Below, in pieces: positions 8,391 to 27,627 of a stretch of DNA of 64,000 nucleotides. Source of the stretch: Pseudosulfitobacter pseudonitzschiae (lineage in GTDB: Bacteria > Pseudomonadota > Alphaproteobacteria > Rhodobacterales > Rhodobacteraceae); NCBI RefSeq assembly GCF_900129395.1, contig NZ_FQVP01000014.1, forward strand, positions 1-64,000, in the 5' to 3' direction. The notes beneath the pieces are model-generated. The model searched no databases and was not told the DNA's origin. It was given only the letters and a program-made list of their open reading frames with translations. The number at the start of each line of letters is the position of its first letter. The stretch's first letter is position 1. A program made the translations under genes and the position numbers.

Positions 8391-8406
8391 TTTGCGGGAG
8401 AGTGGC

Positions 8407-9493: not shown

Positions 9494-9510
9494 ATATCGC
9501 CACGCGATAT
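9494..9510. promoter_or_regulatory. Probable operator of the XRE regulator
   Basis: Arms ATATCGC and GCGATAT form a perfect 7-base inverted repeat around CAC. It lies 28 bases upstream of the XRE start codon, the expected place for an autorepressor dimer site of a small HTH_3 protein. Confidence 0.55.
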
Positions 9511-9647
9511 ATGTTACATTCGGAGGCGCAGAGAAGAAATGTTTGAGCGGCGCGAGATCGCCGAAATGGGATGCCTGCCGAAACGCAGGTCACGGGATTA
9601 TCCGTCTCGCAAACATTTTGGGCCGTTCAATCGTTCTTTCTGAAAAG

Positions 9648-9674
9648 GGCGGCACCGGCAATACCGGTGCCGCC
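9648..9674 (-). terminator. Rho-independent terminator of the thiolase/etf operon
   Basis: Arms GGCGGCACCGG and CCGGTGCCGCC form an 11-bp stem with a 5-base loop. Read on the minus strand the stem is followed by CTTTTC. It lies about 110 bases past the stop codon of the leftward thiolase gene. The rest of 9467-9784 holds the XRE promoter and no supported gene. Confidence 0.65.
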
Positions 9675-9784
9675 AGTTGGTCGTCCACAGGGAGGTTCAA
9701 GAGGACGAATTCTACAGCGAAATTTGAGGTCAGCCAAAAATCGCATAAGAGAACTTATGTTAGTTTTGTGGTTGTCGCGGCACC

Positions 9785-10984
9785 TCAGACAGCTTCGAGC
9801 GCGATTGCAATCCCCTGTCCCACGCCAATACACATGGTCGATAACGACTTTTCTCCAGGTTTGAGGTCCAGCATCGCTGAACCAGTGATGCGGGCACCTG
9901 ACATGCCAAGCGGATGGCCGAGAGCAATAGCGCCGCCGTTCGGGTTCACGCGGGCGTCATCATCCGCGATCCCCAGGTGCCGTAGTGTGGCCAGACCCTG
10001 CGAAGCAAAGGCTTCGTTAAGTTCGATTACCGAGAAGTCTTCTTGTTTCAGTCCAAGTCGCGCCATCAGCTTTTCCGACGCCGGTGCCGGCCCGAAACCC
10101 ATGATGCGCGGTGCGACGCCCGCGGTTGCGCCGCCCAAGACCCTTGCGATCGGTGTGAGGCCAAATTTTTTTGCGACGTCGCTGGTGGCAAGGATCAATG
10201 CTGCGGCACCATCGTTCACGCCCGAAGAATTCCCAGCGGTTACAGTGCCGTCCGCTTTTACGAAAGTTTTCAGTTGGGCGAGCGCTTCCAAAGTCGTACC
10301 CGCGCGAGGGTGTTCATCCTGTACGACGATCTTTGGCTCCCCCTTTCGCTGAGGAATCTCTACCGGGACAATTTCACGGGCCAAACGACCGTTCGCCATG
10401 GCATCTCTCGCCTTTCGCTGCGAACGCATGGCGAAGGCATCTTGGTCGGCGCGGTTGATGCTGAAGTCTTCCGCTACGTTTTCGGCCGTTTCAGGCATGC
10501 TGTCGACGCCGTATTGACTCTTCATCTGTTTATTGACGAAGCGCCAGCCGATGGTGGTGTCTTCAGCAGAATTTTCGCGCGAGAATGCAGTTGTAGCTTT
10601 TGGCATCACAAACGGAGCACGAGACATGCTTTCCACACCGCCAGCAACAATGAGATCGGCTTCTCCAGCTTTGATCGCGCGGGCGGCTGTGATTACGGCG
10701 TCCATACCCGATCCGCACAACCGGTTCATCGTCGTGCCAGGGACACAATCCGGAAATCCCGCGAGTAGCAGCGACATGCGTGCGACGTTGCGGTTGTCCT
10801 CGCCCGCCTGGTTGGCGCAGCCGAAAATCACTTCGTCAATGGCCGCTAGATCTAGCTTCGGGTTTCGGCTGGCCAGGGCCCTGAGTGGGATTGCACCAAG
10901 ATCGTCGGCTCGCACAGAAGAAAGCGCGCCGCCATAGCGACCAATTGGTGTGCGGATGTAATCGCAGATGTAGACGTTTGTCAT
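9785..10984 (-). CDS. Acetyl-CoA acyltransferase, probably 3-oxoadipyl-CoA thiolase
   Basis: The 399-residue thiolase II-type enzyme carries the acyl-accepting Cys in NRLCGSGMDAV (about residue 89), the His in GGAIALGHPLGMSGAR and the second Cys in TMCIGVGQG. Overall wording is closest to PcaF/PaaJ beta-ketoadipyl-CoA thiolases, which split 3-oxoadipyl-CoA into succinyl-CoA and acetyl-CoA. That would be the last step of the island's pathway. It begins two bases after etfA and shares its operon. A general short-chain thiolase is the alternative, but the dicarboxylate context favours the named substrate. Confidence 0.85.
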   Translation of the reverse strand: MTNVYICDYIRTPIGRYGGALSSVRADDLGAIPLRALASRNPKLDLAAIDEVIFGCANQAGEDNRNVARMSLLLAGFPDCVPGTTMNRLCGSGMDAVITAARAIKAGEADLIVAGGVESMSRAPFVMPKATTAFSRENSAEDTTIGWRFVNKQMKSQYGVDSMPETAENVAEDFSINRADQDAFAMRSQRKARDAMANGRLAREIVPVEIPQRKGEPKIVVQDEHPRAGTTLEALAQLKTFVKADGTVTAGNSSGVNDGAAALILATSDVAKKFGLTPIARVLGGATAGVAPRIMGFGPAPASEKLMARLGLKQEDFSVIELNEAFASQGLATLRHLGIADDDARVNPNGGAIALGHPLGMSGARITGSAMLDLKPGEKSLSTMCIGVGQGIAIALEAV

Positions 10985-10986
10985 TC

Positions 10987-11907
10987 TTAGAGTGCCTTTG
11001 TCATATCCGGGACGGCGTCGAGCAGGTCTGCGACCAGGCCGTAGTCGGCGACCTGGAAGATCTGGGCCTCTTCATCCTTGTTGATGGCGACGATGACCTT
11101 GCTGTCCTTCATGCCTGCAAGGTGTTGAATTGCCCCGGAAATCCCGACCGCGATGTACAGCTCGGGCGCCACGACCTTGCCGGTCTGGCCGACCTGCCAG
11201 TCGTTCGGTGCGAACCCGCTATCCACCGCCGCGCGCGAGGCGCCGACCGCCGCGCCCAGCTTGTCGGCCAGGCCCTCGATGATCGCGAAGTTCTCCTCGG
11301 AACCGACGCCGCGACCGCCCGAGACCACGATCTTGGCCGAGGTCAGTTCCGGACGATCCGACGCCGCGACCTTGTCCTCGACCCAGGCGCTCAGGCCCGC
11401 GTTGCCGGCCGCTGCGATGGCCTCGACGGCGGCCGAACCACCCTGGCCAGCCGCGTCGAAGGCGGTGGTGCGGACGGTCAGTACCTTCTTGGAATCGTTG
11501 GACTTTACCGTCTGAATCGCGTTGCCCGCGTAGATCGGGCGTTCGAACGTGGACCCGTCCACGATGGCGGTGACGTCCGACAAAACCATCACGTCCAGCA
11601 GCGCCGCGACGCGCGGCAGGATGTTTTTCGCGCTCGCCGTGGACGGAGCAACGATATGTTCATAATTGCCTGCCAGGCTGACCACCAGATCGGCGACCGG
11701 CTCGGCCAGGCCGTTGGCATAGGCGGCGTCATCCGCCACCAGAACCTTTGCCACGCCGTCGATCTTCGACGCGGCCTCGCCTGCGGCAGCGGGGCCCGCA
11801 ACCAGAACGGTCACATCGCCCAGCGATTTGGCAGCGGTCACCGCCTTGGCGGTGGCGTCCAGCGCCAGTGCACCACCGGCGATTTCTGCAAGGAGAAGAA
11901 CAGCCAT
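10987..11907 (-). CDS. etfA: Electron transfer flavoprotein alpha subunit
   Basis: The 306-residue protein has the ETF-alpha N-terminal domain and the conserved C-terminal FAD-binding domain (GRGVGSEENF, GASRAAVDSGF, LYIAVGISGAIQHLAGM, INKDEEAQIFQVADYG). With EtfB it carries electrons from acyl-CoA dehydrogenases to ETF:ubiquinone oxidoreductase. The start codon overlaps the etfB stop (TAATG). A plasmid copy probably serves the acyl-CoA dehydrogenase at 23085-24245 and relieves demand on the chromosomal ETF. Confidence 0.95.
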   Translation of the reverse strand: MAVLLLAEIAGGALALDATAKAVTAAKSLGDVTVLVAGPAAAGEAASKIDGVAKVLVADDAAYANGLAEPVADLVVSLAGNYEHIVAPSTASAKNILPRVAALLDVMVLSDVTAIVDGSTFERPIYAGNAIQTVKSNDSKKVLTVRTTAFDAAGQGGSAAVEAIAAAGNAGLSAWVEDKVAASDRPELTSAKIVVSGGRGVGSEENFAIIEGLADKLGAAVGASRAAVDSGFAPNDWQVGQTGKVVAPELYIAVGISGAIQHLAGMKDSKVIVAINKDEEAQIFQVADYGLVADLLDAVPDMTKAL

Positions 11908-12665
11908 TACACGATCCCCTTTTCTTTCAGCTTCGACACCAGCTCGTCGACCGAGCCAACCATTTCCCCGGCCGAACGCGCGGCGGGCTCTGCCGTCTTG
12001 ACGACGGTCAGGCGCGGCGTGACATCGACGCCGAAATCGGCGGCGGTCTTTTCGTCCAGCGGTTTCTTCTTGGCTTTCATGATGTTGGGCAGCGAGGCGT
12101 AGCGCGGCTCGTTCAGGCGCAGGTCGGCGGTGACGATCGCCGGCAGCTTCACCTTGATGGTCTGCAGACCGCCGTCCACTTCGCGGGTCACGACGGCATG
12201 CTCGCCCTCGATCGCAACCTCAGAGGCATAGGTCGCCTGACCCCAGCCCAGCAGCGCCGCCAGCATCTGGCCGGTCGCGTTCATGTCGTTGTCGATCGCC
12301 TGTTTGCCCGCGATCACCAGGCCCGGCGCCTCGGCGTCGATCACGGCCTTTAGGATCTTGGCCACCGCCAGCGGCTCGATATCTTGGTGCACGTCGTCGG
12401 CGGCCACGACGAGGATCGCCCGGTCCGCGCCCATCGCCAGCGCCGTGCGCAGCGTTTCCTGCGCCTGTTTCACGCCGATCGACACGACGACAAGCTCGTC
12501 CGCCTTGCCCGCTTCCTTCAGACGGATCGCCTCTTCAACCGCAATCTCGTCGAACGGGTTCATCGACATCTTCACATTCGCGAGACCAACTCCGCTACCG
12601 TCCGCCTTAACGCGAACCTTCACGTTGTAATCAATTAGGTGTTTTATAGGTGCAATTATTTTCAT
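11907..12665 (-). CDS. etfB: Electron transfer flavoprotein beta subunit
   Basis: This 252-residue protein is a standard EtfB with the N-terminal [13 protein letters not shown], the [19 protein letters not shown] segment, the AMP-binding region ([19 protein letters not shown]) and the recognition loop [16 protein letters not shown]. It is coupled to etfA by a one-base overlap. It follows the SDR gene across a 76-base gap that contains a 10-bp hairpin (12698-12726). Confidence 0.95.
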
Positions 12666-12697
12666 TGGCGTTTATCGTCTTGGAAATTTGCAATGGC

Positions 12698-12726
12698 AGT
12701 AACGGCCCGGGTTCCAGGCCGTTACT
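12698..12726. repeat. Perfect 10-bp inverted repeat between the SDR gene and etfB
   Basis: Arms AGTAACGGCC and GGCCGTTACT flank a 9-base loop. There is no T-tract on either side, so it is more likely an mRNA-stability or attenuator hairpin than a full terminator. It could allow different expression of the ring-cleavage genes and the etf/thiolase genes. Confidence 0.5.
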
Positions 12727-12741
12727 TGGGATGTGTCTCTG

Positions 12742-13497
12742 TCAATTCGCAGTATAACCGCCATCTACTACAATCTCTGCTCCGTGAACGAACGATGACT
12801 CATCCGATGCGAGGAACAGGACCGCATTCGAAACCTCTTCAGGTTTGCTTGGCCGCTTGAGCAGCGTGGCCCCCAGAATTGCCTGCCGGGTCTCTTCGTC
12901 GGCGTGTAGCAGATCTTTTGTCATGGGAGTATCGATGACACCGGGATGGATCGAATTGACACGTATGCCACTTTCGGCCAGGTCGACTGCGCAGGATTTG
13001 GTCAACATCCGTACGGCGCCTTTGGATCCAATGTAGGCTCCCGCCGAAGCGGCACCAACAATCCCATAGATTGAAGAAATATTGATAATTGATGCTTTTT
13101 CGGTCTCTTTCATCAATGGAACCGCAGCTCGGATACCGAGATAAACACCGCGTACATTGACGTTGATCGTCATGTCAAATTCGTCAGGCGAGGTTTCGTG
13201 GAGCGGCTTCAGAATGAGAATGCCAGCGTTGTTCACTAGCACATCAAGTCGACCAGCACTTGATTGCACCGTGGAGATGACATTCTTCCAATCTTCTTCA
13301 AGCGTCACGTCATGCTGAATGAATTCCGCCTTCCCTCCGGCTCCAATGATACCTTTTACTACGCTTTCACCCGCTTCCGTATCACGGTCGGTTACAAATA
13401 CATGCGCGCCTTCACGTGCCAGCGTTTCACAATGGGCTTTTCCCATGCCCATGGCGCCACCTGTTACCAGTGCGACTTTTCCGGATACCCGTCCCAT
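12742..13497 (-). CDS. Short-chain dehydrogenase, probable cyclohexanol dehydrogenase
   Basis: The 251-residue classical SDR has the cofactor motif TGGAMGMGKA, NNAG (VLVNNAGIL), the catalytic Ser (INISSIYG) and YxxxK (GAYIGSKGA), and ends with the SDR signature HGAEIVVDGGYTAN. The Asp after the second strand (VTDRD) points to NAD(H). ATG 13497 is chosen because AGGAGA precedes it; the nine-codon upstream extension lacks such a site. It directly follows the Baeyer-Villiger monooxygenase gene, so it likely oxidises the cyclic alcohol to the ketone (ChnA-like role, inferred). Confidence 0.85.
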   Translation of the reverse strand: MGRVSGKVALVTGGAMGMGKAHCETLAREGAHVFVTDRDTEAGESVVKGIIGAGGKAEFIQHDVTLEEDWKNVISTVQSSAGRLDVLVNNAGILILKPLHETSPDEFDMTINVNVRGVYLGIRAAVPLMKETEKASIINISSIYGIVGAASAGAYIGSKGAVRMLTKSCAVDLAESGIRVNSIHPGVIDTPMTKDLLHADEETRQAILGATLLKRPSKPEEVSNAVLFLASDESSFVHGAEIVVDGGYTAN

Positions 13498-13534
13498 AGT
13501 TCTCTCCTGAGTGTTCATGAACAAATTTAATTGT

Positions 13535-13565
13535 TTCCGCCGGGTTTTCTTAATGCCCGACGGAA
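13535..13565. repeat. Imperfect 10-bp hairpin between monooxygenase and SDR genes
   Basis: TTCCGCCGGG and CCCGACGGAA pair at nine of ten positions around an 11-base AT-rich loop, within the 72-base gap between two co-directional genes. No T-tract follows on the minus strand. The flanks end in TTCCG/CGGAA, like those of the inverted repeat at 22175-22193, so it could be either a processing hairpin or a secondary operator. Confidence 0.35.
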
Positions 13566-13569
13566 TTCT

Positions 13570-15207
13570 TTACACCTTCTCGGCAGTGCGGTCGCGGATC
13601 AGGGATGTATAACCTTCCTCCTTAACCGCACTAATGGCATTGCGATAATTGCCAATCCCGGCCATGTAGAACATCACCGCATTCTTCTTTCCGGGGATAT
13701 TTGCGCCGAAGATCCAGCTTTCAGCTTTGGGGAAGAGTGTCATGTCGGCGATTTCACGGCAGGTGCCAACCCAAGCGTCGCGCGCCTCCACGGTTGGCTC
13801 CACACTTTGAACCCCCTCTTCTTCCATTGCGCAAATCGTGTCAGCGATCCATTCAACTTGCGTCTCAATGCTGGGGGGCAGGTTAGTGAAGGGGCCATTA
13901 GGGCCAAGGATCATGAAGAAGTTAGGGAAGTCTACCTCCATCATGCCGAGGTAACCGAGTGGGCCTTCCTTCCAAGTGTCGCGCATGGTCACGCCTCCGC
14001 GTCCGCGGAGGTCCATTTTGACGTAATTGCCGTCGACCGCATCGAAACCAGTGGCAAAGATTACGATGTCAAGCTCATGCTCCTCGCCGCTTTCGAGACG
14101 AATGCCGTTCGGAGTGAACTCTGCGATCGGATCGGCCTTCACGTCGGCGAGGGTCACGTTGTCTCGGTTGTAGACCTCGTAATAGTTGTTTCCGCAAAGC
14201 GGGCGCTTGGCGTAAAGGTCCTTCGGCGTCAGTTTCTCTGCGACCTTGGGGTCCTTCACGATTTGCTTGATCTTGCCCTTGATGAAGTCAGCGGCCGCAT
14301 CATTGGCCACTTGGCTGGTCGCAATATCGCAAAAGGTGCCAAACATGAAATAGAAACCACCGCCGCGCTGCCAGGCGGCTTCGAAGACCCGCTCCCGTTC
14401 CTCGGGCGAGGCGGTTTCGGCGGGTTCGGCGCTTTCTTCGAAGCCGAAGGCCACAACAGAATTCTTCACTTGATTCCAGATATTATCGTAGTTCGCCTTT
14501 TGCTCGGCGATGGTAGCATCGTCTTGCGGGGTGTTCCCAATCGGCACGACATATTGTGCAGAGCGCTGAAAAACAGTCAGGTGTTTTGCAATTGGTGCCG
14601 TTGCAGTGATAACCTGAACACCCGTCGAGCCGGTGCCGATAATGCCCACGCGTTTGTTGCTCAAGTCCACTCCCTCGGGCCAGGCACCTGTGTGTAAGAT
14701 ACGGCCTTTGAAATCATCGATGCCCTTGAATTTTGGAACATTCGTTGCGGACAAGAGACCGAGGCCAGTGACAAGGTATTTTGCGGTAACTGTCTCACCA
14801 CTATCAGTGATCACGTTCCAGAGACCGGTTTTTTCATTATAGTGCGCGCCATCCACTTTGGTGTCGAACTTGTAGCTGCGTCGAAGATCGAGATGATCCG
14901 CTACCTCGTTCATGTATTCGAGGATCTCGGGCTGGGTCAGATACCGGGTTTTCCAGCGGCCTTTTCGAAGCAACTCTTTGTCAAAAGAATAGCGATAGAC
15001 ATAGCTTTCCGTGTCTGACAGCGCACCGGGATATCGGTTCCACCACCAGGTGCCGCCAACGTCACTGGCGCTGTCATAGCCCCGGACGTTCAGTCCCTGC
15101 TCGTTGCGAAGTTTGTGGACAGCGTAAAGCCCGCCGAAGCCCGCGCCAATGACGACTGCGTCAAAATCCGCTCCGACCGTTTTAGTATTCTCAGTCTGAA
15201 TGTTCAT
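13570..15207 (-). CDS. Baeyer-Villiger monooxygenase, probable cyclohexanone monooxygenase
   Basis: A strong site (GGGAGGAG) precedes ATG 15207, giving 545 residues, the usual cyclohexanone monooxygenase length. Visible are the FAD-binding GxGxxG (VIGAGFGGLYAV, about residue 20), the NADPH Rossmann motif (VGIIGTGSTGVQV, about residue 185) and the BVMO fingerprint FKGRILHTGAWPEG. The enzyme inserts oxygen into a cyclic ketone to give a lactone using NADPH and O2. Neighbours (SDR, esterase) match the chn/cpn gene sets. Six-ring specificity is inferred from the adipate-type downstream genes; cyclopentanone is possible. Confidence 0.92.
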   Translation of the reverse strand: MNIQTENTKTVGADFDAVVIGAGFGGLYAVHKLRNEQGLNVRGYDSASDVGGTWWWNRYPGALSDTESYVYRYSFDKELLRKGRWKTRYLTQPEILEYMNEVADHLDLRRSYKFDTKVDGAHYNEKTGLWNVITDSGETVTAKYLVTGLGLLSATNVPKFKGIDDFKGRILHTGAWPEGVDLSNKRVGIIGTGSTGVQVITATAPIAKHLTVFQRSAQYVVPIGNTPQDDATIAEQKANYDNIWNQVKNSVVAFGFEESAEPAETASPEERERVFEAAWQRGGGFYFMFGTFCDIATSQVANDAAADFIKGKIKQIVKDPKVAEKLTPKDLYAKRPLCGNNYYEVYNRDNVTLADVKADPIAEFTPNGIRLESGEEHELDIVIFATGFDAVDGNYVKMDLRGRGGVTMRDTWKEGPLGYLGMMEVDFPNFFMILGPNGPFTNLPPSIETQVEWIADTICAMEEEGVQSVEPTVEARDAWVGTCREIADMTLFPKAESWIFGANIPGKKNAVMFYMAGIGNYRNAISAVKEEGYTSLIRDRTAEKV

Positions 15208-15322
15208 ATCACTCCTCCCAGAGTAAGACCGCTCCGCCCCGCAGATTGCGGGTGAGATGCTAGATGAATGTTTCGTAGGGGTTTGTCTCGCACCGCACCG
15301 CAATGCAGTGCGAGTACAGGTC

Positions 15323-16225
15323 TCAGAGGGCCCGATACCATGCGGCGATGCGACCAAGTTCCTCGTTTGCCTCGGGCGCGCGTCCCGAAAGCGCGGGAAA
15401 GACATGCTGCATGCCTTCGACGATAGACAGGGTCACGTTTACGCCCTGTGCCTTGGCCTTTTCGTGCAACCGTTCGGCATCGCTCTTAAGCGTCTCGGCC
15501 CCTCCGGCATTGATATAGAGCGGCGGGTAACCGGTGAAATCGTTCTCCAGCGGGTTGGCCAACGGATTAAGCGGATCCGTGCCTTCACCGAGGAACATCC
15601 CCGCCATCGCTTCGAGGATCGGTTTGCCGACTAGCGCATCGGTTTCCGCGTTGGTTTCCAGTGTTTCCCCGCGCATCGCCATGTCGAGCCAGGGCGAATA
15701 GGCGATGACCGCTCCGGGCAGTGGCAACCCAAGTTCGCGTAACTTCAGCACGCTGGCGATGGCAAGATTGCCGCCAGCACTGTCGCCAGCCGTCAGAATA
15801 TTTCTTGCCTTGAAACCCTTATCCAGCAGCGCTTTGTATGCGGCTACTGCATCTTCGATCTGCGCCGGAAATGGGTGCTCGGGTGCGCGCCGATAGTGCA
15901 GGATCACCGACGTAACCCCAAGCACCTTAGCGAGGTGCCCTGCCATTTTTCGATGACTATCGGCTGAGCCGACGGCAAAGCCGCCACCATGAGTGTAAAC
16001 AATTACACGCGAGGTATCTGCCCCGGCTGGTAGGGCCCAGATAGCCTCAACTCCTCCGACATGATCGCTTTTGTAGCTAACGTTTTCCGGCTCTAGTGCG
16101 GGCTGCCCCCATTCATCGAACATGCTGCGCAGGTTCGCGATCGTCAGGTCTGGGTTCTCGACCATCTGATCGGTCCAATTCTGATAAAGCGCCCGCAGCG
16201 TATCGGCTTCTCTACTGATTTCCAT
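15323..16225 (-). CDS. Alpha/beta hydrolase of the HSL family, probable caprolactone hydrolase
   Basis: The 300-residue enzyme has the oxyanion motif HGGGFAVG, the nucleophile motif GDSAGGN and a C-terminal His in EGMQHVFP. GGAGGA precedes ATG 16225; the 13-codon extension upstream is not supported. Lying directly upstream of the monooxygenase, it is the expected lactonase that opens epsilon-caprolactone to 6-hydroxyhexanoate (ChnC-like). The region upstream (16226-16500) contains two TGACGTC-type half-sites (TGACGTC at 16266 and GACGTCA at 16284), then IS-derived DNA, so its native promoter may have been altered. Confidence 0.85.
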   Translation of the reverse strand: MEISREADTLRALYQNWTDQMVENPDLTIANLRSMFDEWGQPALEPENVSYKSDHVGGVEAIWALPAGADTSRVIVYTHGGGFAVGSADSHRKMAGHLAKVLGVTSVILHYRRAPEHPFPAQIEDAVAAYKALLDKGFKARNILTAGDSAGGNLAIASVLKLRELGLPLPGAVIAYSPWLDMAMRGETLETNAETDALVGKPILEAMAGMFLGEGTDPLNPLANPLENDFTGYPPLYINAGGAETLKSDAERLHEKAKAQGVNVTLSIVEGMQHVFPALSGRAPEANEELGRIAAWYRAL

Positions 16226-16512
16226 GTTTATCCTCCCAAGCATAACATTTGGCAAAGCCACCAACTGACGTCGCCAATCTCGAAGACGTCAAACGGTCAA
16301 CGGCATACGCCAATTATCTCAGAGTAAGGGCGAAAAATGCGCCATGTATTGAACAATCCTGCTTTGGAAATAGTATGATCGTGCTCAGCCTGTCGTGAGG
16401 CAGATATGCCCGTTACTAGGCTCTGTTGATGGCGTGGATACCCCCTCCCGACGGCATCGCAATGTGCCACTATGATGAGCGTTAAAAGCCATCACAGAAG
16501 GAAGGAGCATCT

Positions 16513-17540
16513 ATGTCCGAAATTAAAATTATCGGTGTCGACTTGGCAAAGCGCGTTATCCAGTTGCATGGTGCGTACAATGATGGGTCAGTCGCGTTTC
16601 GCAAAAAGCTTTCACGAGGCCAGTTTCTCGCGTTCGTGGCACAGCAACCCAAATGCATGATCGCCATGGAGGCGTGGCCACGGCGTATGGCTGGGGCCGC
16701 GAATTTGAGAAGCTGGGGTGCGACGTGCGGTTGATACCGCCGGTCTATGTGAAGCCGTTCGTCAAACGCCAGAAGAATGATGCGACCGATGCAGAGGCCA
16801 TCTTGGAGGCTGCATTGCGTCCAACCATGCGCTTTTTCGCAGTGAAGACGGAAGATCAGCAGGCCCGTGCCATGCTGTTTCGCACGCGGCAGATGTTTGT
16901 CGGCCAGCGCCCCCAGATGATCAACGCTTTACGCGGCCACCTCGCCGAACACGGATTGGTCGCGGCCCGCGGGCCTGCCCATCTCAAGCGACTCGCGGAC
17001 GCAATCGCAGGTGATGACACCGCGCTGCATGCTGAGGTTCGTGACCTCGGCCGGATGTATCTGGGGCAGATTGAGGGGCTGAATACGCGTGTTGCAGAGC
17101 TTGACGCGAAGATGCGATGTGCCGCCAAGAAAGCCGACTTGGTGCGCCGAACACAAACCATGCCGGGCGTGGTTCCTGTCACGGCGCTTGCGATCGAGAC
17201 ATTTGCCCGTGACCTGGCCACCTTCCGGCGCGGGTGCGATTTTGCCGCCTGGCTTGGGCTTGTGCCGAAGCAGCACTCGACGGGCGGCAAAGCCCGGCTC
17301 GGGAAGACCTCGAAGATGCGACAGCGCGACTCCGGACACTCTTGGTCTCTGGCGCTATGGCTGTCCTCCAGGCTGTCGAGCGGTTTGACACACCGAATAA
17401 TGGCTGGCTGAAACGCCTACTAACCCGCAAGCCGCGCATGGGTCGCCGCGATTGCGCTGGCCAACAAGATGGCGCGTGGCCTCTGGGCCATCATAATGAA
17501 ACAAGAGGATTACCGGAATCCGGTGGCGGCGATGGCATAG
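16513..17540 (+). pseudogene. Decayed IS110-family transposase
   Basis: The frame opens MSEIKIIGVDLAKRVIQLHG with the DEDD-type Asp. One base is lost near 16675, and the frame resumes as ATAYGWGREFEKLGCDVRLI and runs through the IS110 N-terminal and transposase_20 regions (MPGVVPVTALAIETF, DFAAWLGLVPKQHSTGGK). Further frameshifts occur near 17330 and 17440, after which the native end (WVAAIALANKMARGLW) is readable to a stop at 17540. At least three frameshifts make it non-functional. The 17541-17864 stretch behind it shows no gene and is probably the rest of this element. Confidence 0.88.
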
Positions 17541-17864
17541 CGAAGACGGCATGCCACGACGTCCCGGTAAGTTGGGAGTGTGAGGAGGTCACTGAAAAGT
17601 AAGGGCAAAGGATCGATCAGATCCGGGTCAGAGAAAGCAGCATTTGTGCAGGAGCCACCGAGCTCGGTTTGTTGATATGCCTCTGGTCCGCGCATCGCCA
17701 TACCGGCCCGCGGTTACATCAGCGCCGCACACAGAGGCCTGATACATGACCGCACCCGATCACACGCTCGCGCCGTTCAAAAAATCACTTGCACCAATGG
17801 GGGCATGCATGCACAAATCCCGTGTCGGACTCATCTTATGAATCCAGCGTGGTAGCTGAGGTGC

Positions 17865-20640: not shown

Positions 20641-20648
20641 GGGCATCC

Positions 20649-22103
20649 TCACAGCACTGGCGCTCGATTGCGCGAGATAAATTTGGTATTGAGATAGCCT
20701 TCGAAGGTTTCTGTCCCGCCTTCAGTCCCATAGCCGCTGTCTCTTACGCCGCCAAACGGAGTCTCGGGCAGAGCCAGGCCGAACTGGTTGATGCTTACCA
20801 TACCTGCCTGCAAACCCGCAGCTGCTTTATCTGCACGCTCCAACGAATTGGTAAAGACATAGGACGCCAGCCCGAAGGGTAGCCCGTTGGCCCGCGACAG
20901 TCCGTCCTCTATTTCACGAAAAGACGAGACGACAGCAATCGGGCCGAAGGGTTCTTCGCGCATCAAGTCGATGTCGTCGTTGGGCGTATCGACGACTGTC
21001 GGGGCATAGAAGTTACCATGATTCCCAACCCTTTTGCCTCCCGTCAACACCCGTGCACCGTTTTCGCGGGCATCCTCGACGAGCTTTTCCATCGCATTCA
21101 CGCGTCCGCGATGACACAATGGCCCCATCTGTGTGCCCTCGGTTAAACCATCGCCCACCTTTACGCTCTCAAATGCTGAAACTAGCTCGGACAGAAATCG
21201 GTCGTAGATGCCTTGTTGTACGTAAAACCGGGTTGGGGCGATGCACACCTGGCCTGCATTGCGCAGCTTGTTGCCCGCCAAGGCGCGCGCCGCGGCCGTG
21301 GCATCGGCGTCGTCGAACACCAATACGGGCGCGTGACCGCCGAGTTCCATCGTCGCCCGCTTCATGTGGCGGCCAGCCAATTCTGCCAGATGCTTGCCCA
21401 CCTCGACCGAACCGGTGAAGGTGATCTTGCGCACCTCGGGGCGCGCAATAAGAGTTTCCGAAATGAAGGCCGCATTACCCCAGACAAGGTTCAGACAGCC
21501 TTCGGGCAAGCCTGCATCCAGCAGATAGCGCGCAATTGCCATGCAGCCCGCCGGAGCCTCTGCCGGGGCTTTCAAGATCATCGTGCAACCTGACGCAAGC
21601 GCCGCCGCGACCTTGCGTACCGCTTGGCTCAGCGGAAAATTCCAAGGCGTGATGGCAAGGCAGACGCCTATCGGTTCGCGCACGACAAGCTGCTGTACCC
21701 CCGGGCTGCGCGATGGAATGATGCGCCCATAAATGCGCCGACATTCCTCGGCGTGCCAGTCGACGTGGTCAGCTGAGGCGCGGACCTCAGCCAAGGCCTC
21801 AGCCAGCGGCTTGCCTTCATCGAGAGTGATCCAGCCAGCGATCAGTCTGTCATTTTGGCGCAGCAGGTCGGCAAACCGTCGCAAAATTGCACTTCGTTCC
21901 ATGGGAGAGCTGTTTTTCCATCGGCGAAAAGCTGATTCGGCCGAGTGAACCGCATGGTCCAGATCTGCGGCGCTAGCCTGCGGAATCTGTCCGATAGTTT
22001 GCCCGTTTGCAGGGTTTATGACTGCACGATCCTCCGGCGTGGGAGAAGCGATCCAGTCCCGTCCGATGAGGTGCTGGATGGTCGGATAATTCATTTCTTT
22101 CAT
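20649..22103 (-). CDS. NAD(P)-dependent aldehyde dehydrogenase, probable 6-oxohexanoate dehydrogenase
   Basis: The 484-residue ALDH resembles succinate-semialdehyde dehydrogenases. It contains ITPWNFPLSQ, FTGSVEVGK, the catalytic Glu in MELGGHAPV, the nucleophile Cys in NAGQVCIAPTRF and MREEPFGPI. In this setting it would oxidise 6-oxohexanoate to adipate (ChnE-like). ATG 22103 is chosen over 22202 because the longer form runs through the operator at 22175-22193. It is coupled to the fadB-like gene and diverges from iclR. The exact semialdehyde is inferred from context. Confidence 0.87.
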   Translation of the reverse strand: MKEMNYPTIQHLIGRDWIASPTPEDRAVINPANGQTIGQIPQASAADLDHAVHSAESAFRRWKNSSPMERSAILRRFADLLRQNDRLIAGWITLDEGKPLAEALAEVRASADHVDWHAEECRRIYGRIIPSRSPGVQQLVVREPIGVCLAITPWNFPLSQAVRKVAAALASGCTMILKAPAEAPAGCMAIARYLLDAGLPEGCLNLVWGNAAFISETLIARPEVRKITFTGSVEVGKHLAELAGRHMKRATMELGGHAPVLVFDDADATAAARALAGNKLRNAGQVCIAPTRFYVQQGIYDRFLSELVSAFESVKVGDGLTEGTQMGPLCHRGRVNAMEKLVEDARENGARVLTGGKRVGNHGNFYAPTVVDTPNDDIDLMREEPFGPIAVVSSFREIEDGLSRANGLPFGLASYVFTNSLERADKAAAGLQAGMVSINQFGLALPETPFGGVRDSGYGTEGGTETFEGYLNTKFISRNRAPVL

Positions 22104-22174
22104 GGCGTTATGCCCTCGCTCAGTTGTGTCATCCGCAGGATCCGGCACGAAGGGGACCAGATGGACGACTTTAG

Positions 22175-22193
22175 TTTTCCGCATAGCGGAAAA
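22175..22193. promoter_or_regulatory. Probable IclR-type operator between aldh and iclR
   Basis: Perfect arms TTTTCCGC and GCGGAAAA flank ATA. The TCCG-NATAN-CGGA layout is like operators of IclR-family catabolic regulators. It lies in the 171-base divergent region, 72 bases from the ALDH start and 82 from the iclR start, where one site could control both directions. Confidence 0.6.
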
Positions 22194-22274
22194 GTTTACC
22201 ACAGTATTGACGCGGACGTTATCGATCGTTTAGATGTGTTTCAAGACGCATAATTCTTCCCGAGGAGGGATGTC

Positions 22275-23069
22275 GTGAGACCAAGGAAAGACCGCACCAA
22301 GGACGCCGAGAGACAGGACCGCGATTTTGTCACGGCGTTGGCGCGCGGCTTGGAGCTGTTGCGGGCCTTTCGGCGGGAAGGGGAAGCTCTGGGGAATGGT
22401 GAGTTGGCCGAGCGCACTGGCCTGAGCAGATCGACGGTCTCAAGGCTGGCCTATACACTGAACAAGCTGGAATACCTCAGCTACGATCCGGATACAGCAC
22501 GCTATCGACTGGCCCCTCCAGTGCTTTCGCTGGGTTTCTCCTGCCTTGCAGGGATTCCGCTGCGGCAACTCGCAAAGCCCTTTATGCAGGAATTAGCCGA
22601 TTACACAGGTATGCCGGCGGCCATGGCCAGTCGTGACCGACTATCGATGGTCTATCTAGAGCGGTGCAAGGGCACCAACGCCGTCACGCTGGCGATTGAG
22701 GTTGGTGCCCATATTAAACTGGCCACTACCGCGGTTGGTCGCGCCTGCATAGCGGCACACGGCCCGGATGAGCAGGCCAGAATTCTGGCCCTTGTGGAGG
22801 AACATGAGGGTGACAACTGGCCGAATGTGCAGCCCGGAATCGAAGCAGCTATCGAAGACTACCAACAGTACGGTTATTGCACGTCCTTCACGGAGTGGAA
22901 GCGTGATGTGAACGCAGTAGCAGTGCCCTTCGTGCCGACGGACGGCTCACCCATCATTGCCTTCAACTGCGGCGGTCCTTCGCAAACCCTTACGCGCGAT
23001 TGGATCGAAAGCGACGTCGCGCACCGCCTTGTCGATCTTGTCCGCCGCGTTGCGGCGGTCGCACCCTGA
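22275..23069 (+). CDS. IclR-family transcriptional regulator
   Basis: The GTG at 22275 follows GAGGAGGG and gives 264 residues. The N-terminal winged helix-turn-helix (NGELAERTGLSRSTVSRLAYTL, residues about 42-62) precedes the IclR effector domain (SLGFSCLAG, MAVASRD-type stretch, LATTAVGRACIAA, CTSFTEWKRDVNAVAVPF), wording typical of the PcaR/PcaU/PobR branch that senses aromatic or dicarboxylic intermediates. It sits between the divergent ALDH operon and the acyl-CoA dehydrogenase operon, which it leads by 15 bases, and probably controls both. Confidence 0.9.
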   Translation: MRPRKDRTKDAERQDRDFVTALARGLELLRAFRREGEALGNGELAERTGLSRSTVSRLAYTLNKLEYLSYDPDTARYRLAPPVLSLGFSCLAGIPLRQLAKPFMQELADYTGMPAAMASRDRLSMVYLERCKGTNAVTLAIEVGAHIKLATTAVGRACIAAHGPDEQARILALVEEHEGDNWPNVQPGIEAAIEDYQQYGYCTSFTEWKRDVNAVAVPFVPTDGSPIIAFNCGGPSQTLTRDWIESDVAHRLVDLVRRVAAVAP

Positions 23070-23084
23070 ACAATAGAGAGCATA

Positions 23085-24245
23085 ATGGCCCTTGATACAG
23101 ATACCCTTTCCCAGTTTCTCGACGCGCTCGACCGCTTCGTGAAAGAGCGACTAATCCCTTACGAGGATCGCGTCGCCGATGAAGATGTGATTCCGCCTAT
23201 GCTGGTCGATGAAATCCGCACGATGGGCCTTTTCGGCATGTCGATCCCGGAGGATTTCGGCGGGCTTGGCTTGTCGATGATAGAGGAAGTGCAAGCCGCT
23301 TTCGTTCTTGGCCAGGCTTCGCCTGCGTTCCGGTCGCTAGTTGGCACAAACAACGGGATCGGCTCGCAGGGAATCATCATCGATGGAACCGACGAGCAGA
23401 AGGCGAAGTATCTACCAGCTCTCGCCTCCGGAGATATGATCGCATCCTTCGCCCTAACCGAGCCAGATGCTGGTTCGGATGCTGGCGGTCTGCGCACCAC
23501 TGCGCGGCGTGATGGAAACGATTTCCTACTGAACGGCACGAAGCGCTACATTACCAATGCGCCGCGTGCCGATCTATTCACGGTTTTTGCCCGGACCAGT
23601 CCAGAGGTGAAAGGTTCTGCCGGCGTAAGCGCTTTTCTCGTCGAGGCAGGGACGCCGGGCATAACGCTTGGCCAGCCTGACAGGAAGATGGGGCAGAAGG
23701 GTTCGCACACATGCGACGTCATCCTTGACAATGTCCGCGTGCCTGCCTCGAACATCATCGGCGGGCCGGACCGTCTGAACAAGGGCTTCAAAACGGCAAT
23801 GAAAGTCCTTGATCGGGGCCGACTGCATATTTCTGCCGTCTGTGTGGGCGCCGCCGAACGGCTGATCCGTGACAGCCTATCCTATGCGATTGAACGCAAA
23901 CAATTCGGTGAACCCATCGCTGAAAAGCAACTGATCCAAGCCATGCTGGCTGACAGTCGCGCCGAGGCCTTCGCAGCGCGTTGCATGATCGAAGAAACAG
24001 CACGCCGCAAGGACGCTGGTCAGAACGTGTCGACTGATGCTGCCTGCTGCAAGATGTTTGCCAGTGAGATGGTAGGTCGAGTGGCCGATCGCGCAGTGCA
24101 AATCCACGGCGGTGCAGGATACATGGCCGAATATGCGGTCGAGCGCTTCTATCGCGATGTGCGTCTCTTCCGCATCTACGAGGGGACAACCCAGATTCAG
24201 CAAATACTGATCGCGCGGAATATGATCCGCACTGCAGCAGCTTAA
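23085..24245 (+). CDS. Acyl-CoA dehydrogenase, probable adipyl-CoA dehydrogenase
   Basis: The 386-residue flavoprotein has the family motifs FALTEPDAGSDAGGLRT, YITNAPRADLFTVFAR, the substrate-binding region MGQKGSHTCDV, ERKQFGEPIAEKQ and QIHGGAGYMAEYAVERFYRDVR, with the catalytic-base region RIYEGTTQIQ. It would form the 2,3-enoyl-CoA and pass electrons to the plasmid-encoded ETF. It is followed 18 bases later by the Fe-ADH gene. Chain length cannot be read from sequence; adipyl-CoA is inferred. Confidence 0.9.
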   Translation: MALDTDTLSQFLDALDRFVKERLIPYEDRVADEDVIPPMLVDEIRTMGLFGMSIPEDFGGLGLSMIEEVQAAFVLGQASPAFRSLVGTNNGIGSQGIIIDGTDEQKAKYLPALASGDMIASFALTEPDAGSDAGGLRTTARRDGNDFLLNGTKRYITNAPRADLFTVFARTSPEVKGSAGVSAFLVEAGTPGITLGQPDRKMGQKGSHTCDVILDNVRVPASNIIGGPDRLNKGFKTAMKVLDRGRLHISAVCVGAAERLIRDSLSYAIERKQFGEPIAEKQLIQAMLADSRAEAFAARCMIEETARRKDAGQNVSTDAACCKMFASEMVGRVADRAVQIHGGAGYMAEYAVERFYRDVRLFRIYEGTTQIQQILIARNMIRTAAA

Positions 24246-24263
24246 CAGGAGCGAAGACAAACT

Positions 24264-25418
24264 ATGGACTTCAATTTCCTTTCCACCCCGAGGATCGTCT
24301 GCGAGAGCGGTGGGCTTGGCCGGATCGGCAGCCTGATGCAAGATTTGTCTTGCACCCGTGCGCTGGTCGTGACGGACCCGGGCATATTGGCCTGTGGTTT
24401 TGCGGACGAGGCAGCCGCCTCACTTAGGGCTGCTGGCATCGAGGTTGAGATTTTTCATAAAGTCAAAGCGGACCCCCCGATCGCTGTCGTCGAGGCCGCG
24501 GTAGAGGTCGCGCGGGCCTTTGGTGCTGACGGAATCATCGGACTTGGCGGCGGCAGTTCACTGGACACTGCCAAGGTCATCGCAGCGGCGGTAGCCAACG
24601 ATCAACCGATTACGGACATGATCGGGATCAATCAGGTCACCGATAAACGCTTGCCACTGATTCAGGTGCCAACCACGGCAGGGACCGGATCAGAGGTAAC
24701 ATGGGTGTCCGTGCTGACTTCGGAAAGCCACGAAAAAAAAGCGGTATATGCACCGCAGCTTCTGCCTGACGTTGCCTTGCTAGATGCAAAGCTAACATTG
24801 GGAATGCCTCGTCACATCACAGCGGCCACGGCGTTAGACGCAATGGTTCACGCCATTGAGGCAGTAACCAGTCGCACCAGAAAGAATCCCATTTCCGATG
24901 GAATGGCGGACAAAGCGCTGGTGCTTCTCGGTCAGAACTTACCAATCGTCATGGAAACGCCTTCGGACCTGTCAGCGCGAGAGGCCATGCTGTTGGGGGC
25001 GACACTGGCTGGGATGGCCTTCATTAATGCCAGCGTGGGGGCGATTCATGCCTTGTCATACCCACTGGGAACAGGTTTCAAGGTTCCTCACGGGCACGCA
25101 AACGCTCTGGTCGCAGGACCAGTGATGAGGTTCAACATGCCCGTTGCAGAAGCTGAATATGCTCGTCTATCGCGGTTACTACTGCCCTCGCGGCCTTTTA
25201 ACTCTGATGCGGCTGCGGCCCATGGCCTGATCGACGAGATGGAACGGATGCTAGTCGAAAGCGGACTTGAGTCTCGACTTTCTGGTGTCGGAGTGACCGA
25301 GGCAGCCATTCCCGGAATGGCTAATGAGGTCGTGACCGGTATCACGCGATTGCTGGAGACCAACCCGCGCGACATGACAGCCGAAGATGTGTCGCGCCTC
25401 TATCAGGAGGCGCTTTGA
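24264..25418 (+). CDS. Iron-containing alcohol dehydrogenase, probable 6-hydroxyhexanoate dehydrogenase
   Basis: The 384-residue group III ADH has the dinucleotide motif GLGGGSSLDTAK (about residue 95), the PTTAGTGSEVTW segment and metal ligands in ALDAMVHAIEAVTS, HALSYPLGTGF and VPHGHANAL. Relatives oxidise linear alcohols or 4-hydroxybutyrate. Here it is the best candidate for 6-hydroxyhexanoate to 6-oxohexanoate. Known chnD enzymes are zinc-type, so this would be an analogous replacement (inference). Its stop overlaps the next start (TGATG). Confidence 0.87.
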   Translation: MDFNFLSTPRIVCESGGLGRIGSLMQDLSCTRALVVTDPGILACGFADEAAASLRAAGIEVEIFHKVKADPPIAVVEAAVEVARAFGADGIIGLGGGSSLDTAKVIAAAVANDQPITDMIGINQVTDKRLPLIQVPTTAGTGSEVTWVSVLTSESHEKKAVYAPQLLPDVALLDAKLTLGMPRHITAATALDAMVHAIEAVTSRTRKNPISDGMADKALVLLGQNLPIVMETPSDLSAREAMLLGATLAGMAFINASVGAIHALSYPLGTGFKVPHGHANALVAGPVMRFNMPVAEAEYARLSRLLLPSRPFNSDAAAAHGLIDEMERMLVESGLESRLSGVGVTEAAIPGMANEVVTGITRLLETNPRDMTAEDVSRLYQEAL

Positions 25419-26620
25419 TGGCTGGCTCATTGGACGGGATCAAGGTGGTCGACCTCAGCCGCGTGCTGGGCGGGCCTTACTGCACCCAAATGCTTGCGGA
25501 TCATGGCGCTGAGGTCATCAAGGTGGAGCCGCCTCTGGGCGACGAGACCCGCAGTTGGGGCCCGCCTTTCAATGATGAACTCAGCGCCTATTTCTCTGGC
25601 GCCAACCGCAACAAGCGGTCCATCGCTATCGATCTGCAGCAACCGGAAGGGCGCGACCTGATATTGCGGTTTCTTCAGGATGCAGATGTTTTAGTTCACA
25701 ATTTTAAGTCTGGTACTCTTGAAAAATGGGGGCTTGGTTATGATGATGTTCTCAGGGCACGTTTTCCTAGACTGGTACTCTGCCACGTGACTGGATTTGG
25801 TTCCGATGGCCCACTTGGCGGTTTTCCCGGCTATGACGCCGTGGTACAAGCTATGACGGGCCTCATGAGCATCAACGGCAATCCCTCCGAAGGCCCGACA
25901 CGCATGGGTACGCCCATCGTGGACATCGGCACCGGTCTGATCGCCTGTAACGCTATTCTCGCCGCACTTTTGGAACGGGGCCGGTCCGGATTGGGCCAAG
26001 CCATCGAAGTGCCGCTATATGATTGCGCGATCAGCATGATGCATCCCCAAGCGGCTAATTCCCTCATGTCCGGACAGATACCAATGGCGACCGGCAATGG
26101 GCATCCAAATATCGTACCATACGACATGTTCGAAACAAGTAATGGCAAACTCTATCTGGCTATCGGTAACAATGGTCAGTTCGCAAAACTCTGTGACGTG
26201 CTTGGCCTACCTGAGGTGCCCTGCGATCCACGATTTGCCGACAATGCCGCGCGTCTTGCGCATCGGTCAGAGATGACAGAGGTCTTGTCAGAGTGCCTGG
26301 TGCAACATGACGCCTTCAAACTTGAGCCGGTGCTTTTGAAAGCTGGGATTCCCGCCGGAGTCGTTCGGAATGTGAATGAAGCGTTGGAGCATCCACACAC
26401 CCGACATCGCGGCATGGTGGTATCAGTTGGTACCTACCGCGGCACCGGCGTGCCAGCACGCTTGTCGCGTACCCCCGGAGCGGTTCGCGCGGCACCGCCT
26501 CGCTTCGGGCAGCATAGTAGGCAGTTGCTTAGCGAGGCTGGACTGACAGAAGCTGAAATCGATAGATTGACTCAAGCGGATATCGTTCGAGAAGAACCGC
26601 GGATGCGCGAGACGACCTAA
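25418..26620 (+). CDS. Class III (CaiB/BaiF) CoA-transferase, probable adipate CoA-transferase
   Basis: The 400-residue protein has the family start (GIKVVDLSRVLGGPYCTQMLADHGAEVIKVEPP is split over residues 5-37), ANRNKRSIAIDL, the catalytic Asp in TPIVDIGTGL (near residue 168), YDMFETSNGKLYLAIGNN and HRGMVV. These enzymes move CoA between carboxylates, for example from succinyl-CoA. ATG 25418, preceded by CAGGAGG and overlapping the ADH stop, is the better start than the TTG one codon earlier. It supplies adipate activation, since no acyl-CoA ligase is present in the island. Confidence 0.88.
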   Translation: MAGSLDGIKVVDLSRVLGGPYCTQMLADHGAEVIKVEPPLGDETRSWGPPFNDELSAYFSGANRNKRSIAIDLQQPEGRDLILRFLQDADVLVHNFKSGTLEKWGLGYDDVLRARFPRLVLCHVTGFGSDGPLGGFPGYDAVVQAMTGLMSINGNPSEGPTRMGTPIVDIGTGLIACNAILAALLERGRSGLGQAIEVPLYDCAISMMHPQAANSLMSGQIPMATGNGHPNIVPYDMFETSNGKLYLAIGNNGQFAKLCDVLGLPEVPCDPRFADNAARLAHRSEMTEVLSECLVQHDAFKLEPVLLKAGIPAGVVRNVNEALEHPHTRHRGMVVSVGTYRGTGVPARLSRTPGAVRAAPPRFGQHSRQLLSEAGLTEAEIDRLTQADIVREEPRMRETT

Positions 26621-26672
26621 GCCGAAATTTCAGCTCAAGCGGACGATCGTGAAAAAGTTCAGGGAGGCCAAG

Positions 26673-27554
26673 ATGGAAAGACTGCTCATATCACCGGACC
26701 GGATACCCGAATGGATTCCCGGCACGACTACGTTGGACAGTTCCGGGTGCAACTGGAACGGCATTACCCTGAAGGGCTATCGTTATGAGCGACAAGACGC
26801 GGCAATTCCCCCCATGCGCGACTATATGATTGTTGCATATGATGGCGCGCCAACCACTATGCGCCGCACGAGTGGCGGCCCATGGCAAAGCGCGCGCGTA
26901 GAGAAAGGTAGGATTTCCTTGCTCACGCGTGCAGAGGAATCCACTTGGAGTTGGTCCGAGCCTATCACGGTTAGACACGTCTATCTCAATCACAGCGAAC
27001 TCGAAAACACGGCCCTTTCGGTCTTTGATCGTGACCCGAAGTCCATTGAGATCAATGATTGGCTATCTGCGAAGGACCCCTGTATCCTGAACTGCATCCA
27101 ATTGCTAGAGAATGAGCTAAAGAACGGTGGAATCGGCCAGAGATTGATCATCGACGCCCTGCGCAGCCAGATCGCCGTTCACCTTCTGCGTCAGTACGCC
27201 AAGGTCTCTTTGACCAGCGACGCAAACTCGAACTTCAGCCCTGCTCAAAGGCAGAGAATCATCGATCTCGTTGAAAGCTGCTTAGGTGAAAACCTCAGTC
27301 TGGAAGACATGGCCGCATCTATCGGTTTCAGCCAGTTTCACTTTTCGCGTCAGTTCAAGGCGGAGTTTGGGTTGGCACCGTATGCATATGTTTTGCGCAA
27401 GCGAATATCGAAGGCCCAGGAGATGCTGAGAAAGGGTAATGCCCCCCTGAAAGTGGTCGCGCTTGACTGCGGTTTTGCAGATCAGAGTCATTTTAGTCGA
27501 ACTTTTCGAAAAATGACAGGCGCGACCCCCGCCGAATTCCGGCGCATGGCATAA
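26673..27554 (+). CDS. AraC-family transcriptional activator
   Basis: The 293-residue protein has a C-terminal double HTH (LSLEDMAASIGFSQFHFSRQFKAEFG and the second helix pair ending VVALDCGFADQSHFSRTFRKMTGATPAEFRR). The N-terminal half is a poorly conserved sensor. AGGGAGG precedes ATG 26673; the GTG at 26649 is less likely. Located at the end of the pathway operon, it is a candidate activator comparable in role to ChnR of cyclohexanone degraders. The ligand is unknown. Confidence 0.87.
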   Translation: MERLLISPDRIPEWIPGTTTLDSSGCNWNGITLKGYRYERQDAAIPPMRDYMIVAYDGAPTTMRRTSGGPWQSARVEKGRISLLTRAEESTWSWSEPITVRHVYLNHSELENTALSVFDRDPKSIEINDWLSAKDPCILNCIQLLENELKNGGIGQRLIIDALRSQIAVHLLRQYAKVSLTSDANSNFSPAQRQRIIDLVESCLGENLSLEDMAASIGFSQFHFSRQFKAEFGLAPYAYVLRKRISKAQEMLRKGNAPLKVVALDCGFADQSHFSRTFRKMTGATPAEFRRMA

Positions 27555-27627
27555 TGACCGGAAAACTATTCCTTCCTATCGCTGTCACGCACCAGAGACA
27601 AAGAAATGTTGAGCCCGTAACGCTGCA

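Follow-up and report, generated by a model that had tools for sequence, protein, structure and literature searches.

A plasmid-borne gene island in Pseudosulfitobacter pseudonitzschiae with a predicted route from cyclohexanol to acetyl-CoA and succinyl-CoA

Can one plasmid locus supply all the enzymes needed to take a six-carbon alicyclic ring to central metabolites? The question is raised by a gene island at positions 9785–27554 of a 64,000-nucleotide stretch of Pseudosulfitobacter pseudonitzschiae DNA (positions 1 to 64,000 of contig NZ_FQVP01000014.1; hereafter the window), in which an earlier note had read a complete plasmid-borne route from cyclohexanol to succinyl-CoA and acetyl-CoA. The interval holds 13 intact open reading frames (ORFs) in two divergent blocks, and the observed gene content is confirmed: every enzyme named in the note, together with its IclR and AraC regulators, is present as an open and intact frame. 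The left-going block comprises, in this order, an aldehyde dehydrogenase (ALDH), a FadB-type fusion, an esterase, a Baeyer-Villiger monooxygenase (BVMO), a short-chain dehydrogenase/reductase (SDR), etfB, etfA and pcaF; the right-going block comprises IclR, an acyl-CoA dehydrogenase (ACD), an iron-containing alcohol dehydrogenase (Fe-ADH), CaiB and AraC, followed by a thioesterase that ends at 28086. The island is probably a catabolic unit for six-carbon alicyclic rings that takes cyclohexanol to acetyl-CoA and succinyl-CoA. The earlier interpretation is right in substance and partly supported as a whole, a plasmid-borne island from ring to adipate and an iron-type ChnD being already known; added here are the adipate half, a modular exchange between sister islands, and a wide, near-identical spread.

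Gene content and the predicted route

Oxidation of cyclohexanol to cyclohexanone would be carried out by the SDR (12742–13497, minus strand), a predicted cyclohexanol dehydrogenase in the ChnA role. Its score exceeds the cut-off of one broad subfamily model, labelled glucose 1-dehydrogenase (252.8 vs 215 bits), and the assignment otherwise draws on gene context: an SDR gene lies near or beside those of esterase and BVMO in plasmids of Roseibium, Actibacterium, Pseudosulfitobacter, Polaromonas and Rhodococcus. Oxygen insertion to give epsilon-caprolactone is expected of the type I BVMO (13570–15207, minus strand; ChnB role), which, judging from fingerprint, structure search and tree, falls with the cyclohexanone monooxygenase (CHMO) clade and is predicted to act on cyclohexanone. 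Two GxGxxG sites and the FxGxxxHxxxW[PD] fingerprint are in place. The nearest PDB entry is TmCHMO from Thermocrispum (744.9 bits), with other entries named CHMO at 723–742 bits and ten entries named only putative flavin-binding monooxygenase at 658–701; steroid monooxygenase (about 493), phenylacetone monooxygenase (PAMO; 455–470) and OTEMO (414.5) follow. A rapid maximum-likelihood tree (122 rows), prepared without six own or duplicate copies and without BVMO stretches of 480 residues or fewer, puts the enzyme in a 21-row set (SH-aLRT 96) with TmCHMO, two further solved CHMOs and the Polaromonas JS666 plasmid enzyme, and places PAMO elsewhere. A non-cycloketone identity, which the earlier note had named among the outcomes that would overturn its reading, is rejected by the PDB scores and the tree. 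That note had also proposed a phylogeny against both CHMO and cyclopentanone monooxygenase (CPMO); the tree answers this in part, with solved CHMOs among its references but no CPMO and none labelled as Acinetobacter CHMO. The host genome has a second BVMO (C19:179022–180584), 43% identical to that of the island.

Hydrolysis of caprolactone to 6-hydroxyhexanoate is assigned to the HSL-type alpha/beta hydrolase (15323–16225, minus strand), a predicted caprolactone hydrolase in the ChnC role with HGGG and GDSAG motifs and a fold confirmed by Pfam (PF07859). An esterase homologue adjoins the BVMO gene in all nine compared loci, and in the Pseudomonas kurunegalensis locus it stands beside the first of two BVMO-like genes. 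The Fe-ADH (24264–25418, plus strand; PF00465; ChnD role, predicted 6-hydroxyhexanoate dehydrogenase) and the SSADH-type ALDH (20649–22103, minus strand; ChnE role, predicted 6-oxohexanoate dehydrogenase) would then together produce adipate. The ALDH has homologues in seven of the nine loci (36–83% identity). The D-x3-H and later histidine positions of the Fe-ADH, presumably the metal ligands, are kept in Labrenzia and Neobacillus. At the family level, the island thus clusters the alcohol dehydrogenase (ADH), BVMO, lactonase, and 6-hydroxyhexanoate and 6-oxohexanoate dehydrogenase genes of the chn pathway, with the Fe-ADH presumed to fill the fourth role; the zinc-type ChnD, usual but not defining for that pathway, is not part of the set. 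Zinc ADHs are found in the sister islands of Actibacterium, Pseudosulfitobacter (pSMR1-4), Pseudomonas, Polaromonas and Rhodococcus. Those of four of these islands (all except Pseudomonas) have no match on the window plasmid, and one has its best match elsewhere in the host genome at 31%. Since these five sister islands carry a zinc ADH and none of those tried is matched on this plasmid, the Fe-ADH is the natural candidate for the 6-hydroxyhexanoate step. The replacement of zinc ChnD by an iron enzyme, as proposed earlier, is in line with this result but is not a first, and that claim is rejected: a table in PMC5125639 lists ChnD1 of Brevibacterium sp. HCU as an iron-type 6-hydroxyhexanoate dehydrogenase (cd08191), with a cyclohexanone-oxidation paper as reference. 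The window enzyme shares the iron type with ChnD1 and is placed here at the level of the Fe-ADH family.

In the adipate half, the CaiB/BaiF family III CoA-transferase (25418–26620, plus strand), a predicted succinyl-CoA:adipate CoA-transferase, would form adipyl-CoA, with CoA probably taken from succinyl-CoA. Its nearest NCBIfam model is succinate--glutarate CoA-transferase (360.7 bits vs a cut-off of 750), and in the PDB it comes closest to an unnamed CaiB/BaiF protein, ahead of a formyl-CoA transferase entry and succinate--hydroxymethylglutarate CoA-transferase. The ACD (23085–24245, plus strand), a predicted adipyl-CoA dehydrogenase, would form 2,3-dehydroadipyl-CoA and pass electrons to the electron transfer flavoprotein (ETF) of the island, encoded by etfA (10987–11907, minus strand) and etfB (11907–12665, minus strand). 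Hydration and oxidation to 3-oxoadipyl-CoA can be attributed to the FadB-type fusion of enoyl-CoA hydratase and 3-hydroxyacyl-CoA dehydrogenase (18601–20640, minus strand; PF00378, PF02737, PF00725), and the pcaF-type 3-oxoadipyl-CoA thiolase (9785–10984, minus strand) is the predicted final enzyme, releasing acetyl-CoA and succinyl-CoA; the latter could fund the next round of adipate activation. PcaF passes two equivalog cut-offs (TIGR02430, 669.7 vs 597 bits; NF006551, 705.9 vs 605). The ACD scores 290 bits with its best solved relative, a generic acyl-CoA dehydrogenase, glutaryl-CoA dehydrogenases reach at most 209.5 among the matches listed (60 of 69), and the NCBIfam glutaryl-CoA dehydrogenase model gives 236.6 bits vs a cut-off of 470. 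Because PcaF passes the 3-oxoadipyl cut-off and the ACD is not glutaryl-CoA-like, a six-carbon chain length is indicated, and a glutarate (cyclopentanone) reading is rejected. The families required for dca-like adipate beta-oxidation (CoA activation, ACD, hydratase, 3-hydroxyacyl-CoA dehydrogenase and 3-oxoadipyl-CoA thiolase) are all represented, the thiolase alone passing a curated cut-off. As the earlier note had it, these genes are present as part of the unit, and by gene order and family the adipate half belongs to the island. The etfAB pair, described there as private, does lie on the island, although a further etfA copy (78% identical) occurs in the host genome; the best other thiolase copy in the host is 67% identical to the island pcaF.

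The IclR-family regulator (22275–23069, plus strand) is PcaR/PcaU/PobR-like, below the cut-off of the nearest model (131.9 bits vs 284.75), and together with the AraC-family regulator (26673–27554, plus strand) it probably controls the two divergent blocks. Two features were overlooked in the earlier note, the remnants of two insertion sequences (IS) at 16,226–18,600 and the 4HBT-type acyl-CoA thioesterase (27,628–28,086, plus strand; PF03061), which lies beyond the interval considered there, is present in the roseobacter copies of the island and has no match in the Labrenzia locus. Motifs that we take to be diagnostic are in place in the BVMO, esterase, ALDH, thiolase, ACD, FadB, Fe-ADH and SDR. 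Judged by the annotation of a relative, the listed ORFs of SDR, BVMO, esterase, FadB, ALDH, CaiB and AraC extend upstream of the true starts. The GC content of the 10–28 kb region is 53–61% (in 2-kb steps) vs 64–65% for the first 8 kb of the window.

Known relatives, sister islands and selection

In Acinetobacter, the chn and dca adipate genes specify the same reactions from separate loci, with a zinc ChnD and separate beta-oxidation proteins. The closest described system is that of Mameliella alba KU6B. This strain can live on cyclohexylamine as its only source of carbon, and a cyclohexanone-to-adipate cluster was assigned in 2020 to positions 59336–71649 of plasmid pKUB77 (PMC7206491). This segment equals window positions 12742–25125, from the SDR into the Fe-ADH, and the plasmid carries the same island: over 18.4 kb, the two copies differ by 6 substitutions and 71 gap columns. 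A single 69-bp deletion within the IS remnants accounts for most of the gaps, and the Fe-ADH and AraC genes of pKUB77 each lack one base. A plasmid-borne island leading from the ring to adipate is therefore already in print (PMC7206491). That account covers cyclohexanone to adipate only and leaves CaiB, PcaF, EtfAB, adipate beta-oxidation and the spread of the island unmentioned; the gene for cyclohexylamine oxidation could not be determined by its authors. In a limited literature search, no published description of the adipate half or of the spread was found. The terms cyclohexan-, Baeyer, monooxygenase and adip- are absent from the main texts of PMC9025767 and of a 2026 Sulfitobacter paper (PMC13386836), and cyclohexan-, monooxygenase and adip- are absent from PMC9044938.

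Plasmid pYLL2 of Rhodococcus sp. YL-1 resembles the window in bearing esterase, BVMO, SDR, ALDH and ADH genes beside those for CaiB, acyl-CoA dehydrogenase, hydratase, reductase and thiolase, and with this near-complete set the notion that a complete plasmid-borne route is unique is rejected. It differs in that a zinc ADH takes the place of the Fe-ADH, and a MaoC hydratase and FabG reductase that of the FadB fusion; no ETF genes are listed, and the BVMO is 58% identical. Plasmid 2 of Polaromonas sp. JS666 shares the esterase-BVMO-SDR order (68%, 65% and 63% identical, respectively), and its BVMO gene is presumably that of the JS666 CHMO already studied by others. Unlike the window, it has a zinc ADH, and no ACD, FadB or thiolase match was obtained in the 20.9 kb examined. 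A CHMO of JS666 is the subject of work by Alexander et al. 2012, as cited in PMC5407406.

The same 13-gene order is found in Roseibium/Labrenzia plasmids, which belong to another bacterial order, at about 73–75% DNA identity, and this recurrence argues that the arrangement is not due to chance. The Labrenzia copy shows 68–89% protein identity to the window island, and six Labrenzia/Roseibium plasmid records have the BVMO at 82.4%. Elsewhere the unit is mosaic. Actibacterium pNS6002 has esterase, BVMO, SDR, IclR and ACD at 73–84% identity together with a zinc-type ADH, and the locus of Neobacillus drentensis (Bacillota; 9040–18865 of the compared stretch) has esterase, BVMO, Fe-ADH, ALDH, a symporter, an acyl-CoA ligase and CaiB. 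The Neobacillus esterase and BVMO are 67–69% identical to those of the window, which is high for a different phylum, and its Fe-ADH is 34% identical; a FadB match there covers 19% of the query only and was rejected as a stand-alone hydratase, not a fusion. When the best 80 of at least 591 pattern matches in a genome scan for BVMO loci were compared (tblastn, E 1e-15), a Rhodobacteraceae metagenome-assembled genome (MAG; short contig) had seven of the 14 window genes, Neobacillus six (one partial), and the other 78 at most four. With a threshold of E 1e-100, BVMO relatives are found in 123 of 72,556 plasmid records, 99 of the 123 being below 60% identity. These comparisons suggest that sister islands employ unrelated enzymes at the same steps around a conserved esterase-BVMO core. 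They may be useful for enzymology, as the exchange of zinc for iron ADH, and of MaoC plus FabG for the FadB fusion, lets function be read from substitution; for biocatalysis, the island offers a marine CHMO-lactonase pair and a self-contained route through adipate. A second CHMO-like gene in the Pseudomonas kurunegalensis plasmid (12001–18458 of its locus) lies near an APC permease, RidA and a FAD oxidoreductase, a set that is a possible amine-to-ketone entry.

Comparison of the window with the Sulfitobacter THAF37 copy gives a ratio of nonsynonymous to synonymous divergence (dN/dS) of 0.00–0.30 for 13 of the 14 genes, AraC being the exception at 0.44. When the Labrenzia copy is used instead, the ratio is 0.04–0.24 for 11 of 13 genes, SDR and AraC having no computable dS. 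There is no stop codon in any of the 14 genes. Taken together with the conserved order, this indicates that the unit has been kept by selection over long times, and the island, by these measures, is maintained on either side of the IS remnants.

Alternative explanations

Several observations weigh against a working cyclohexanol unit. The approximately 2.4 kb between the esterase and FadB genes (16226–18600) are occupied by the interrupted remnants of an IS110 element (identified by an NF033542 match) and an IS5-like element (a label based on reading of the frames), which divide the left-going block, and a promoter scan of 15200–22400 gave nothing above chance. Among the matches listed, only PcaF and, at the level of a broad subfamily, the SDR pass curated NCBIfam cut-offs, and the FadB fusion shows the weakest constraint among the enzymes (dN/dS vs THAF37 of 0.30). 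A further Fe-ADH, sharing 45% identity with that of the island, is encoded elsewhere in the host genome, and the one-base deletion relative to the window in the KU6B Fe-ADH, if real, would make that enzyme dispensable; the AraC gene of that assembly carries the other such deletion. The substrate reported for KU6B is cyclohexylamine, not cyclohexanol, and no activity, induction or growth data were found for the host of the window itself. Partial copies also exist. In Sulfitobacter indolifex pDSM14862_e, an IS21 element stands in place of etfAB, SDR, BVMO and esterase, with FadB, ALDH, ACD, Fe-ADH, CaiB and pcaF kept; Sulfitobacter pontiacus NZ_CP139702.1 matches from fadB rightwards only; and in Phaeobacter G2 CP104102.1, 59% of the island is matched, with the BVMO at the record end. 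The IS remnants, the shortened copies and the chance-level promoter scan could be taken to mean that the island is decaying, with esterase to pcaF silenced and the whole carried as a plasmid passenger. We regard this as very unlikely, given that all 14 genes are free of stop codons with dN/dS below 1 on either side of the remnants, and that KU6B, with the same remnants bar five substitutions and the 69-bp deletion, grows on cyclohexylamine (PMC7206491). The remnants are absent from the Roseibium/Labrenzia islands, where the gap is 192 bp.

The partial copies of S. indolifex and S. pontiacus, and the presence of two regulators, would also fit two adjacent units, one for ring opening to adipate and one for general dicarboxylate or fatty acid beta-oxidation with its own inducer. 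This appears improbable in view of the gene order: in both the Roseibium and the roseobacter islands the genes of the two supposed units are intermingled, pcaF and etfAB lying past the BVMO on one side and CaiB and ACD on the opposite side, and in Actibacterium and the Rhodobacteraceae MAG, ACD and IclR directly adjoin esterase-BVMO-SDR. A further possibility, clearly stronger than either of these though still tentative, is that in nature the island serves a different cyclic ketone or a precursor of one, for example cyclohexylamine, a larger ring, a substituted cyclohexanone or a terpenoid ketone from algae, and that cyclohexanol is only a model; this is compatible with a six-carbon ring unit. 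CHMO-clade enzymes are known to be promiscuous. The island genes include no ring-hydroxylase and no transporter, and several carriers were obtained from algae, corals and a copepod. KU6B was isolated on cyclohexylamine (PMC7206491). On the other hand, a 3-oxoadipyl-CoA thiolase with an adipate-type module points to an unbranched six-carbon dicarboxylate, and the SDR is 58–84% identical to SDRs of chn-type clusters. The catabolic unit for six-carbon alicyclic rings set out above remains the preferred reading.

The plasmid and the spread of the island

The contig (C18) measures 73,738 bp, and its two ends overlap exactly over 144 bp, consistent with a closed plasmid; if circular, it would come to about 73,594 bp (73.6 kb). 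It carries a repABC replication and partition module (44672–48427, plus strand), genes for a VirD2-like relaxase and a VirD4 coupling protein (60136–63992, plus strand), type IV secretion system (T4SS) genes virB8 and virB6, a further T4SS protein, SLT, virB4, virB3 and virB2 (42–7306, minus strand) and, past the window end on the same contig, virB9–B11 (C18:70504–73630). Pfam identifies RepABC, the MobA/VirD2 relaxase, VirD4, VirB8, VirB6, VirB4 and the SLT protein, and all 12 conjugation proteins of a sister plasmid are matched on C18 by tblastn at 94–99% identity, VirB9–B11 included. The plasmid location claimed earlier is thereby borne out, and since a single replicon unites RepABC, a relaxase, a coupling protein and VirB genes, the plasmid looks self-transmissible, transfer being predicted. 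Relatives such as pDSM107133_g and pTHAF37_f are classed as mobilizable in PLSDB, and pDSM107133_g appears as RepABC-9-2 with a T4SS in a table of a 2022 plasmid paper (PMC9025767). If the assignment of the route is right, a single conjugation event would give a marine bacterium the full path from a cyclic six-carbon ketone to central metabolism, electron carrier included.

Almost identical copies are already present in several oceans. At least 80% of the island is found in one place in 12 of the 72,556 plasmid records, and the BVMO at 95% identity or more in 13, in lists from which the genome that the window comes from, or one very close to it, may be missing; at 97% or more, the BVMO occurs in two of 394 genomes drawn from the family, the window's own included, so the island is scattered rather than universal. 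Over 18,401 aligned columns, the substitutions relative to the window number 5 in a North Sea plasmid, 7 in one from California, 6 (plus gaps) in one from Japan, 15 each in plasmids from the South China Sea and an Atlantic vent plume, 16 in a copepod isolate, and 188 (plus one gap) in Ruegeria THAF33. In the same seven plasmids, the stretch 1–9700 (mostly T4SS genes) averages 89–93% identity to the window, and the right flank at 28.1–33 kb is 99.9–100% identical over 57–100% of its length. For DSM 107133, identity is 99.85% from 6,700 to 31,100, which places the left breakpoint further left, inside the T4SS genes; in D7 and the two S. faviae plasmids, six substitutions are clustered at 9716–9732, right at the edge of the island. 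In the THAF37 lineage, 500-bp windows across 10–28 kb are 90–99.8% identical outside the IS region, and flanking windows 82–93%. The contrast between island and backbone argues for partly different histories, fitting recombination into one slot. It is conceivable, though doubtful, that one recent allele of the island swept through marine Roseobacteraceae across several oceans and genera by plasmid transfer and backbone recombination, as replaceable cargo in a fixed slot of a conjugative plasmid family, driven by a current supply of six-carbon alicyclic compounds (cyclohexylamine, for example). Near-identity of the copies alone gives no date for the spread.

Synonymous divergence from THAF37 is 0.01–0.02 from Fe-ADH to thioesterase (24264–28086) vs 0.09–0.29 in the rest of the island, which suggests that the right part recombined more recently. 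The cargo slot (window 9.7–28.1 kb) is occupied differently in pSMR1-6, where GABA-type, folate, ETF and hydantoinase genes come after the same helix-turn-helix gene and ParB lies further along. Between VirD4 and VirB11 (C18:64014–67353), the plasmid of the window has a CBASS-like trio of a CD-NTase (PADLOC cyclase, 653 bits), a 2TM/SLATT effector (256 bits) and a DUF2235 protein, the last with no PADLOC match; the trio is 97–99% identical in pSMR1-6. A HamB-like DEAD helicase and a Fic-domain protein, with partial PADLOC matches, lie close together at 51245–57004 of the window.

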